Of a stretch of DNA of 64,000 nt, positions 25,194-47,011 are shown in pieces. Source of the stretch: Fretibacterium sp. OH1220_COT-178 (lineage in GTDB: Bacteria; Synergistota; Synergistia; Synergistales; Aminobacteriaceae). Below the pieces are notes generated by a model. That model searched no databases. It was not told the origin of the DNA and saw only the letters and a list, made by a program, of their open reading frames with translations. A program made the position numbers and the translations under genes. How positions within the stretch are numbered: the first letter of the stretch is position 1; every line of letters begins with the position of its first letter. The stretch lies in NCBI RefSeq assembly GCF_003860125.1, contig NZ_RQYL01000008.1, positions 1-64,000 of the forward strand. The letters run 5' to 3'.

Positions 25194-25221
25194 ATTATAC
25201 CCCCCGTCCCGGCCCTGTCAA
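25194..25221 (-). promoter_or_regulatory. Promoter of the T-box/dap operon inside the end of the LysR gene
   Basis: Minus-strand TTGACA (25216-25221), a 16-base spacer and TATAAT (25194-25199), both perfect consensus. The -10 overlaps the TAA stop of the LysR-type gene on the same strand. Confidence 0.85.
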
Positions 25222-42500: not shown

Positions 42501-45500
42501 TCACTGCATCCTTTGATAGACGATGGTGAAACCGTTCGGGGCCGTGATCGCAAAGGCCATCCCGCTTGGGTCCCACTGGAAGAGGTTCGAGAATGCCGCC
42601 CCGGTATTCGTCTGCCCGTACATCCTGTTTCCCTGAATCTGGAAGACCCCGGCCTCGGAGGGCATCCCGTTCACCCACACTCCGTACTGGTTCCCCTGAA
42701 TCTGCATCACCAGCTGCTGCCCGTTGACAAAGGCACCCCAGACCCCGTCGAGCGTCGCCCCCTGCGGAGGCACCTGAGGCTGCGGAGGCACGGACTGAGA
42801 GGGGTACTGCGGCTGAGAAGGGTCCGGGTGGGGAGGCTGCGGGTGAGGGGGGGAGCCCGCTTGCCTGTTGTACACCGTGGCCGTCTCCGTATCGGCGAAG
42901 GTGACGACCAAGGCTTTTGTCTCCGGGTTGTAGGCGGTGAAGAGCACGAGGGGTTGTCCGTCGGACGGCGTCAGGGTCACCCGATTGTCCGAGAGCGTGA
43001 AGGAGCCCTGGCGGAGGGCGCCCCCGGCCGGGGCGTAGCCCGCCTGTCCCCCCCGGAAGGTCAGGGTGCTGCCGTCGTCCCCGCTCCACTCCCCCTCCAG
43101 ATAGCCGGCGGGGAACCACAAGTCGTCCAGCGGGATCAACTGGATATGACTGCCGCTGGCGCAGTCGATCATCCTCCAGGAGTAGCGGCCTTCCTCCGGA
43201 ACCAGCAGGGCGAAGTCGCTCTTCACCAAGGTAAGCGCCCCACCTTCTCCCGGCACCACCGACCTCACGATCGGCAATCCTTCCGGCTGCACAAGCAGCC
43301 GAAGATGGACCGGATCCGAGCCGAACGCCGAGAGCGTGGCGGCGAACGCCATTTCCCGGCCACTTGCCTGTTCGATCTCCAGGACCGCACCATTGGGGGC
43401 CAGGAGGCTGTTCGTGCCCGTCCGGGAGGGGACGATCCCCACGGCCGCGTAACGCCCGAGGAAGTGCTCGTAGCCCCGCTCCTGCGTCACCTTCAGATAG
43501 GGCGTCACCATCGGATTTTCCGCGGCCCGGACGGGGGGAGCGATATGGATGTCCCCCTCGCCGCCCAGGGACTCCGCCTGGACCAGGACGCGCATCCACG
43601 ACCCGGCCGGAACGGGCTCCACGACGACGGAGAGGCCGTCCTTCCACTCGATGGGATCCCCCACAACCTGCACGAGCTTTCCGTCCGCAATCTTGTTCAG
43701 GAGAGGACGAAACACGTCCTGTGGTTTGGGAGTGATGGCCACCACCGTCATCTTTCCACCGGCATCCGTCACGACACCGGCCATCGAGACGATGGAGCCG
43801 AAGTCCGATTCGACGCCGATCTGAACCGGAATATCCTTCCCCAGCCCCGGGGAGGAGTAGAGCCCCGAGACGGTGATGAGCTTCGGGTTCGAGACGTCCA
43901 CCGCGTCGACCTGGACCAGCGACCGACTCTCCCCGTTGGAAAAATAGTGAAGGAGCCCGGCAAGCTGATAGAGCAGCTCGTTCCGTCCGTCCCGAAAGAC
44001 GGGCGTCCCGATGTCTGTCGTCTCCTCGTCGGGGTTGATATTTTCCGCCGGCAGCAACTGGGAGAGCGACTGCACGTACTCGCCGTCCCGTTCCCTGGAG
44101 AAGGCAAAACCGCAGTACCCCCACAAGATGTTTTTCCCCTCAAGCGTCGCCTTGAGGTAGCTCCGCGTCATCCCGGAGAAGGCGGTCCCGGAGAGCGGGA
44201 CGAACTCGGAGCTGGGCTCGATGGCGTAGTCGGCGCCTCTGCGGGGCGTCCCGACCCCCTGCTTCGGCACGGGACTGCCCAGCTCGACCGAGACGATCTT
44301 TGGAGGATCCATCCCCTCCTTCTTCTGCATCGCGTAGACCGCGGCAAGGGCCTTCGACCACCCGACCGCCCGGTCGAAATCCGTCTCCTCGTAGCCCGGA
44401 CGCACATTGTCGGCCCGCAGGGGCGCATACAGGGAGAGCCCCCGGCTCAGGGGGATCGACGGACCGGACTCGGTCGCCAAAATCAGGGGGCTTACGGCCT
44501 TTTCAACCGCGGCGATCTCCCCCTTCAGGTCCGTCCCGCACGGCATGGCCGAAAGACGCCTCAGCCAGTCCATCAGGTCCACACTCGACACCGCATCCCC
44601 CTTCTCGCGGTAGTCCCCCGGCCCAATGTAGTTCATCGCGTAGAAGAGCGTCCGAGTCACGTCGCTCCATGCCTTGGGCGCCAGGGTGCCCAGTTTTCCG
44701 GCAAACTTCGCGCAGGCGGAGATGAGCGCGTCGGCCTTGGAAAGATCGAACGCGGTGAGGGACGCCGTGTCCCAATGGATCTTCAAGAACCCCTTGCATC
44801 CCGCCCCGACCATCCTGCGCGCGATCTCGCCCGTGTCGAGCCCCTGGGTGAACAACGGCAGCGCGGCCAGGTAGTCCATGCCCACCGAGGGCAGAATTGT
44901 GGCCCCCGCGACCATATACCGGGCAAAGGGCGCACACGCCGCCGCCACCTCCAGCTGGGCCATCAGACACATATCGAAGGTGAGCAGGTCCAGCTTTCCC
45001 CCCGGCAAAGATGGGGCCACCCGAGACAGGACGCCCCGGAGTCCGCTCAGCGTCAGAGCGTCCACCCCATCCACCGCACCCGGCGCGTCCTCGTCGCTGG
45101 CCATACTGATCCATCCCATGCCGTGATTCCAGAGGACCAGGGCGGTCCTCCGGGCCGGAAACTTTCGGACGGCGGCCTGCACGAAAGCCTCGAGGGTCTC
45201 CGGGGCCCCCATGTTCCGCTCGCCGCAGTCCGCGATCAGTTCCGAGCCGATCGCGTCCTTTCGGGTGGATCTTTTGACGCGGTAGGCGCGCGTCCCGGTC
45301 CAGTCGCCCATCTCGTCGCTGTAGCCCTTGGCCCGGTCCAGCAGCACGACGACCTCGACCTTGCCGCCCTCGGGGAGCCCCTGCTCCATCTCCTTCAGAT
45401 CGGTCAAGGCCCACTCCTCCAGGTTGTTGTCGCCGTCAAGATAGACCAGGATCGTCCAATCCCTGTCCCCCGGGACCGGCGCTCCCCAGTCCCATGGACC

Positions 45501-45632
45501 GCGGCTTTTGGATGACGGCGCTTCTGCGGTTTCTGCAGGGGCCGCCCCAAAGGATGAGCTTGAAAAGAACAAAACAAGGGTAAAAGTAAGGAGGGTCAAG
45601 AGGAGAGATAGCGTCCTTCTCGGTGCCTTCAT
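42501..45632 (-). CDS. Secreted clostripain-family (C11) peptidase-like protein
   Basis: A 1043-residue exported protein: signal peptide (RTLSLLLTLLTFTLVLFF, to about residue 32), then the C11 domain with DWTILVYLDGDNNLEEWALT, the catalytic His in LVLWNHGMGWI and the catalytic Cys in LLTFDMCLMAQLEVA (about residues 220-232). The rest (from about residue 400) is a long beta-rich region with a Pro/Gln/His-rich linker (about 920-955) and a C-terminal repeat with GNQYGVWVNGMPSEAG. Clostripain-type enzymes cleave after Arg, but specificity here is not known. The frame runs to 45686; the ATG at 45632 follows GGAGGTGTACGTC. Its putative promoter holds a long G tract. Confidence 0.88.
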   Translation of the reverse strand: MKAPRRTLSLLLTLLTFTLVLFFSSSSFGAAPAETAEAPSSKSRGPWDWGAPVPGDRDWTILVYLDGDNNLEEWALTDLKEMEQGLPEGGKVEVVVLLDRAKGYSDEMGDWTGTRAYRVKRSTRKDAIGSELIADCGERNMGAPETLEAFVQAAVRKFPARRTALVLWNHGMGWISMASDEDAPGAVDGVDALTLSGLRGVLSRVAPSLPGGKLDLLTFDMCLMAQLEVAAACAPFARYMVAGATILPSVGMDYLAALPLFTQGLDTGEIARRMVGAGCKGFLKIHWDTASLTAFDLSKADALISACAKFAGKLGTLAPKAWSDVTRTLFYAMNYIGPGDYREKGDAVSSVDLMDWLRRLSAMPCGTDLKGEIAAVEKAVSPLILATESGPSIPLSRGLSLYAPLRADNVRPGYEETDFDRAVGWSKALAAVYAMQKKEGMDPPKIVSVELGSPVPKQGVGTPRRGADYAIEPSSEFVPLSGTAFSGMTRSYLKATLEGKNILWGYCGFAFSRERDGEYVQSLSQLLPAENINPDEETTDIGTPVFRDGRNELLYQLAGLLHYFSNGESRSLVQVDAVDVSNPKLITVSGLYSSPGLGKDIPVQIGVESDFGSIVSMAGVVTDAGGKMTVVAITPKPQDVFRPLLNKIADGKLVQVVGDPIEWKDGLSVVVEPVPAGSWMRVLVQAESLGGEGDIHIAPPVRAAENPMVTPYLKVTQERGYEHFLGRYAAVGIVPSRTGTNSLLAPNGAVLEIEQASGREMAFAATLSAFGSDPVHLRLLVQPEGLPIVRSVVPGEGGALTLVKSDFALLVPEEGRYSWRMIDCASGSHIQLIPLDDLWFPAGYLEGEWSGDDGSTLTFRGGQAGYAPAGGALRQGSFTLSDNRVTLTPSDGQPLVLFTAYNPETKALVVTFADTETATVYNRQAGSPPHPQPPHPDPSQPQYPSQSVPPQPQVPPQGATLDGVWGAFVNGQQLVMQIQGNQYGVWVNGMPSEAGVFQIQGNRMYGQTNTGAAFSNLFQWDPSGMAFAITAPNGFTIVYQRMQ

Positions 45633-45693
45633 GACGTACACCTCCAACTCGATCGGCAGAATGACGATGACGGAAAAATTCGACATTTTCCTA

Positions 45694-45720
45694 AGAATAC
45701 CCCCCCCCCCACATTGTCAA
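45694..45720 (-). promoter_or_regulatory. Putative phase-variable promoter of the C11 peptidase gene
   Basis: Minus-strand TTGACA (45715-45720), then ATGT and eleven G residues (45700-45710), then TATTCT (45694-45699). The spacer is 15 bases; gain of one to three G residues would bring it to 16-18. Homopolymeric spacers of this kind control phase-variable surface genes such as porA in Neisseria. Whether the tract varies is not known. Confidence 0.6.
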
Positions 45721-45841
45721 GAAGTTTTCGGGAGCGGTGTCGTCGTTCAGTGATCCTGCCCCCCCCGATCCCCCGCGCACGAGGAGGCCCCAAAGCGGCG
45801 GTAACGAGAACGAGTTCTGCAGACGTTTGGGTATCGGCGTT

Positions 45842-47011
45842 CTACCTTTCTTCCCAGCTCAGAATATAACTCAGGTAGACCTCCGCCACGTCGACCACGG
45901 CGTCGAGAGCGATCCGTTCGTTGGTCAGGCAGGTATAGACATCCTCTCCAGGTCCGTAGAACAGGAAAGGGACTCCCAGAGCCGGAACCAGCACGCAGGC
46001 GTCGGTCAGATAGTAAAGCCCCGTACGTTCCGTGGCACGCCCCATCGATCTCAGCACGGCCTCGAACCGACGCACCATGGGGGCGGAGGCTTCCATCCCC
46101 ACCGAAGGGCGGCTGTTTCTGAGGCGCAGCTCGATCGACAGTCCCGGAGTCGCCCGCATCCTCTCTTCGGCGAGCTCTCGGATCGTCTGCAGGATCTCTT
46201 CGTTGTCCTGGTCGGGCAGCAGGCGGATGTCCAGCGTGGCTGTTGCGGCATCGGGGATCAAGTTGACCTGAAGCCCGCCGTTCAGCCCCGTCAGAGTGCA
46301 GGTGGCTTTGCCGAAGAGGGGGTGTTCGCTGCGCCCTGTGTCCGCGATGCGCGGCCGAAGGAGTTCGTAAAAGCGGATCAGCTCCTCCACGGCGTTGACC
46401 CCCAGCTCGCTGCGGCAGGCGTAGCAGGATCGCCCTTCCGCCTCGACCTCCAGCCAGATCCCACCTCTCTGGGCGATACCGATGCGCTGTTCCGTGGGCT
46501 CGGCAAAGAGGATCTCTCGAGTTCCCTCCAGAAAACCGCCCCGCGCTATGGCGGTCGAGCCCGTCATCTCGCTGGAGTCTCCGTCGGCGCAAAGGCAAAG
46601 AGCAACGTCGACAGGCGGCCGTCTCTCTGTCTCGGCGAGATAAAGCAATGCCATGATCATCGAGGCGATCCCGCCCTTCATGTTGGCAGACCCACGACCG
46701 TAGACGCAGCCGTCCCGATAGTGGCCGCCGAAGGGAGAGTAGTCCCAGTCCGAACGCCTGAAAACCGCCTGTGTGTCGGTGTGGCCGGCCAGTGCCAATT
46801 TGCGGCTCCGATCGTGCCCTGGAAGGATCGCGACCAGGGATGCCCGATTGTCCCCGTGGTCGACGACGTTCGCCTCCAGCACGCCCGAAGGAAAGAGGGA
46901 CAGGATGTAACGCACCAAGTCTTTCTCGTCCGCACAGGGGAGAAGCGTGCGCAGACGGATCAGCTGTTGAAGTATCGCGAGGGTCTTGTCCCTGTCAATC
47001 TTCGCGCTCAT
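45842..47011 (-). CDS. M20-family peptidase/deacylase (ArgE/DapE/CPG2-like)
   Basis: A 389-residue metallohydrolase-like protein with the M20 layout: LALAGHTDTQAVF (metal His and Asp, about residues 73-85), VYGRGSANMKGGIASM, CADGDSSEMTGST in the place of the catalytic Glu region, a dimerisation insert (about 180-290) and EDVYTCLTNERIALD near the end. Two points are odd: the bridging Asp of the family xxDMKG motif is Asn here (ANMKGG), and the Glu-Glu pair is not evident. It may be altered or inactive, or may use other ligands. The start overlaps the PucR-type stop (ATGA), so both are co-transcribed. Confidence 0.82.
   Translation of the reverse strand: MSAKIDRDKTLAILQQLIRLRTLLPCADEKDLVRYILSLFPSGVLEANVVDHGDNRASLVAILPGHDRSRKLALAGHTDTQAVFRRSDWDYSPFGGHYRDGCVYGRGSANMKGGIASMIMALLYLAETERRPPVDVALCLCADGDSSEMTGSTAIARGGFLEGTREILFAEPTEQRIGIAQRGGIWLEVEAEGRSCYACRSELGVNAVEELIRFYELLRPRIADTGRSEHPLFGKATCTLTGLNGGLQVNLIPDAATATLDIRLLPDQDNEEILQTIRELAEERMRATPGLSIELRLRNSRPSVGMEASAPMVRRFEAVLRSMGRATERTGLYYLTDACVLVPALGVPFLFYGPGEDVYTCLTNERIALDAVVDVAEVYLSYILSWEER

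Follow-up and report, generated by a model that had tools for sequence, protein, structure and literature searches.

Does a run of eleven Gs lying between the -35 and -10 hexamers of a peptidase promoter act as a phase-variable switch, i.e., does slippage of the run change the transcription of the gene behind it? The window, by which we mean the whole 64,000-nucleotide stretch of DNA that was analyzed, reads TTGACA-ATGT-G11-TATTCT on the minus strand at 45720-45694, 61 nt 5′ of the start codon of a gene encoding a probably secreted C11 peptidase, and this reading of the hexamers and of the tract agrees letter for letter with the first-pass annotation. We consider it likely that the slippage-prone G11 tunes or switches transcription at this C11 peptidase promoter through spacing, and that the promoter is a member of a class found in Synergistota in which a tract forms part of the spacer. 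Three elements of this reading are inferences: use of the G11 promoter by the gene, slippage of the tract, and control of output by tract length. The G11 tract would set the distance between the -35 and the -10, and replication slippage, by adding or removing Gs, would lead to transcription being tuned or switched; the assembled G11, with its spacer of 15 bp, would be a weak state, G12-G13 (16-17 bp) would be strong states, and G10 or fewer would be off.

Switching by spacer length is itself a known mechanism. For example, the porA promoter of Neisseria meningitidis carries a poly-G tract between -35 and -10, the length of which sets the spacing and so transcription (PMC7864442), and TP0126 of Treponema pallidum has a poly-G tract in the same position, with transcription reported when the spacing is 17 (PMC7864442). 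In Neisseria fetA (frpB), a poly-C tract of strain-variable length lies between the -10 and the -35 (PMC5320596). The window site resembles porA in having a G tract in the spacer, but it lies in another phylum and upstream of a gene for a probably secreted C11 peptidase, and its switching by length is a proposal. It likewise shares with TP0126 a poly-G between the boxes, whereas that system concerns a spirochaete OmpW homolog and has been tested by experiment. The fetA system, also with a homopolymer between the boxes, parallels the C-tract promoters of the sister genus g16 described below, and differs from the window site in that its tract is C on the coding strand and its product an outer-membrane receptor. 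We found no account of its use in Synergistota: our search of open-licence papers returned no report of phase variation tied to Synergistetes promoters, Synergistota, or Fretibacterium, in agreement with the earlier statement that no such switch has been described in this phylum. If our reading is true, spacer-length phase variation extends to a little-studied phylum, and tract length in reads would be a simple marker of population heterogeneity in uncultured Synergistota.

The putative promoter and its gene

The features of the locus are as follows.
42501-45632, minus strand: gene for a probably secreted C11 (clostripain family) peptidase of 1043 aa, assigned by Pfam PF03415 and by alignment with clostripain 9cip
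45641-45645, minus strand: Shine-Dalgarno sequence GGAGG, 8 nt ahead of ATG 45632
45686-45688, minus strand: expected transcription start region, ~7 nt past the -10, predicted from sequence
45694-45699, minus strand: putative -10 hexamer TATTCT, matching at 4/6 positions (T1, A2, T3, T6)
45700-45710, minus strand: G11 homopolymer, the proposed slippage site, inside the 15-bp spacer and abutting the -10
45715-45720, minus strand: -35 hexamer TTGACA, 6/6, the one -35 in the 420 nt ahead of the start codon that pairs with a -10-like hexamer
45759-45766, minus strand: second tract, G8, upstream of the -35

With its immediate flanks, the minus strand at 45721-45684 reads CTTGACA-ATGT-GGGGGGGGGGG-TATTCT-TAGGAAAATG, and the homopolymer G11 lies between -35 and -10, as in phase-variable promoters of the spacer-homopolymer type. 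TTGACA/TATTCT is the only promoter-like pair at or below 420 nt from the start codon when a TTG... hexamer and a spacer of 15-18 bp are asked for, and a standard scan of 45600-45900 with spacers of 16-18 bp returned no promoter. No RNA structure was detected around the G11 promoter (fold z = +1.0). The first-pass annotation had set the 15-base spacer against an optimum of 17 bases. The length of 15 bp is correct; the optimum is better placed at 16 in this genome, where perfect TTGACA/TATAAT promoters have a spacer of 16 in 10 of 15 cases, of 17 in 4 of 15, and of 18 in 1 of 15. With a local norm of 16-18, mostly 16, the assembled G11 state is therefore one base short, and one extra G would reach the local optimum. 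Elsewhere in the window, the minus strand at 25194-25221 reads TTGACA-N16-TATAAT, in which six Gs at the end of the spacer abut the -10, as a short-tract version of the G11 layout.

The controlled gene was proposed from the outset to encode a large secreted peptidase-like protein, with which the domain and the N terminus agree. PF03415 matches with an E value of 7.8e-38 (131 bits versus a cut-off of 25.8), the NHG (His) and D-x-C (Cys) motifs align with those of the solved clostripain 9cip, and the N terminus, as read from the sequence, is a signal peptide-like segment, MKAPRRTLSLLLTLLTFTLVLFFSSSSFGAA. The C11 domain and both motifs are common to clostripain and the window protein, but in the latter, which is ~1043 aa long, Pfam matches nothing in the long C-terminal regions. 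The start of the gene is ATG 45632, behind GGAGG; an in-frame ATG at 45686 was rejected as the start codon, as it has no Shine-Dalgarno sequence and lies at the expected transcription start.

Relatives of the peptidase in other genera of the family are mostly 42-52% identical over long stretches, and no G:C run >6 was found upstream of them in the 6 regions examined; in 4 of these relatives the best promoter match is TTG-N17 with an extended TGn -10. Conservation of the tract together with the peptidase orthologs was therefore rejected, the tract being absent in all 6 relatives, and the G11 tract is thus particular to the lineage of the window.

Tract promoters elsewhere in Synergistota

TTGACA followed by G8+ within 8 bases was found in 21 of 83 genomes of the family, almost all of them of genus g16, where C-tract versions of the layout are also common, and TTGACA-N(0-10)-G9+ in 26 of 188 genomes of the phylum, with 0 matches to the reversed pattern. 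Altogether, TTGACA with a G/C run of at least 8 was seen some 80 times, chiefly in g16 but with examples from two further families; we fetched 80 distinct sites with such a tract, 78 of which could be scored. A -10 matching at 5/6 positions or better follows the tract at promoter distance in 57 of these 78 sites, compared with 4-7 of 78 in shifted controls (five windows, 20 to 80 bases off) and with 1 of 20 scrambled-hexamer tract sites, mostly of the same genus (Fisher p = 2e-8). Within the phylum, families f1, f4, and f7 all contribute sites with a good -10, and a Shine-Dalgarno sequence and start codon typically follow 40-70 nt downstream of the tract promoters. For example, a site in another family (L121) reads TTGACA-AAGT-G16-TATTAT before a lipoprotein gene, the same grammar as in the window. 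The -10 of the window site itself matches at 4/6 and falls outside the 57 strong -10 sites, and the window site is therefore a weaker member of the class; its genome contains a single tract promoter, unlike the g16 genomes.

Counts of the hexamer were set aside as evidence and would mislead, because the scrambled hexamer TACTGA, used as a control, is itself frequent, with about 20 sites in g16 that stem from a recurrent TACTGACG-G motif; the case therefore rests on the -10 position test. In genus g16, the recurrent TACTGACG is followed by G8-G14 at L225-L244, apparently within coding sequence. Many g16 tracts lie outside promoters, and the presence of a tract is therefore not enough to infer a promoter switch.

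Tract lengths differ between related promoters, the differences seen being between species or between loci and in other genera, with the genus of the window represented by one genome. In two species, the shared promoter of orthologous lipoprotein genes (73% identical) carries G11 in one and G8 in the other; the gene of a small protein found in four species (74-78% identical) is preceded by C13, C13, C10, and C11; and three similar promoters in one genome carry G8, G9, and G11, which give spacers of 15, 16, and 18. The opposite is seen in another family, f7, where G10 precedes the pyruvoyl-dependent arginine decarboxylase gene (PF01862) in each of the three species seen (L102-L104). In two of these, L103 and L104, TATAAT lies at a spacer of 15-16 after TTGACA-G10.

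These comparisons bear most directly on the main alternative, in which the promoter is functional, the G11 spacer is fixed and weak, transcription is low, and the tract is invariant on the relevant time scale. The G10 kept in the three f7 species indicates that close species may share an unchanged tract, the window's genome has only a single such site, and it encodes the mismatch-repair protein MutS. MutS usually lowers slippage, and the slippage rate may therefore be modest. Set against this, related g16 promoters do differ in tract length, and G tracts of such length slip in Neisseria and Treponema, and we regard a fixed spacer as unlikely. The earlier proposal of a probable phase-variation switch is thus upheld in its architecture, in the lack of an alternative promoter among the pairs scanned, and in the existence of a phylum-wide class in which orthologs and paralogs have unequal tracts; the switching of this gene keeps the strength of a likely reading.

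The G11 tract against the background of its genome

An explanation by chance would hold that, in a GC-rich genome, one long G run has come to lie beside a TTGACA, and that the real promoter is of another type or lies upstream, transcripts then reaching the gene by read-through of the M20 peptidase gene. Pattern searches of the 2.86-Mb genome, from which all genome-wide tract statistics were obtained, returned 21 G:C tracts of at least nine, i.e., 14 of nine, 6 of ten, and 1 of eleven, the last being the G11 of the C11 peptidase promoter and the longest G:C run of the genome. The tail of this distribution extrapolates to about 1-2 tracts of at least 11, and we therefore rejected the length of the G11 as evidence by itself. 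The layout TTGACA-N(0-10)-G9+ occurs at one site in this genome and the reversed control pattern at 0, but the reversed control with G8 matches once. In addition, the scan of 45600-45900 turned up nothing resembling a terminator between the G11 promoter and the M20 peptidase gene upstream of it, so that M20 read-through could supply transcripts. What weighs against chance is that the longest tract is also intergenic, most of the other long tracts of the 21 being inside long open frames, and that, when all 21 were scored on both strands for a promoter spanning the tract, it alone matched at 10/12 positions (the runner-up at 8/12). Moreover, in the phylum class, -10 boxes occur at promoter distance much more often than in matched controls. 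We consider chance to be decidedly improbable, and retain the reading that the tract is part of a promoter whose spacing would change with tract length.

Spacer geometry and the tracts of genus g16

The mean spacer of the tract promoters across the phylum is 19.3, versus 17.2 for the ordinary promoters listed from g16 genomes, a difference that arises in part by construction, as no -10 can begin within the tract. Many short-tract sites stay at 19-20 bp by means of bases added after the tract, and tract length correlates negatively with the remaining spacer (r = -0.64), and a geometric effect of the homopolymer on the spacer is possible. That the G tract works by structure or protein binding (e.g., through a stiff A-like helix or as the site of a regulator) and not by variable spacing is very improbable. 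In favor of this reading, the longer tract-promoter spacers look as if geometry were compensated, and Neisseria opc is thought to act through a regulator; against it, the spacer difference arises partly by construction, as described, and no regulator site was identified. The many natural G- and C-tract spacers of varied length are also material on homopolymer geometry versus the optimal spacer.

The genes under tract promoters include several that encode proteins with lipoprotein or signal-peptide starts, and also a YadA-stalk protein, an LRR protein, glycosyltransferases, and an LRAT-domain protein; many of the downstream proteins have no Pfam match. One genome (G144) contains two similar sites, TTGACA-AATGTCA(A)-G10-T-GATAAT (L120 and L160), the second of which precedes the gene for a secreted YadA-stalk protein. 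In g16, a gene with a weak cytidylyltransferase match and some others seem to have their frame interrupted by a coding tract, and the tract set of this genus is probably a phasome. On balance, we favor the view that Synergistota, and above all g16, hold a large undescribed phase-variable set made up of G/C-tract spacer promoters and coding tracts, in the style of the Neisseria and Campylobacter phasomes, with the window site, which belongs to a different genus, as a lone outlier of the set, and with tract spacers of ~19-21 bp and not 16-18, possibly because the helix geometry of the tract shifts the optimum. If this is true, the lipoprotein, YadA-stalk, and glycan genes of the related genus are probably switched at random.

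Genomes of g16 (e.g., G036 with L193-L212, G085, and G103) contain tens of G:C tracts of at least 10 each, and up to 242 overlapping G:C tract matches were counted in G085. The settings of these tracts include promoter spacers, coding sequences in which the tract seems to interrupt the frame (L202, L204, and L206), and a position beside a lipobox (L200). In G036, 5 of 23 tracts of at least 10 are no more than 40 bases away from the end of their contig (C4, C18, C20, C22, and C25). This suggests that the assembly of this genome breaks at tracts, for which heterogeneous tract length, repeats, or difficulties in sequencing may be responsible.
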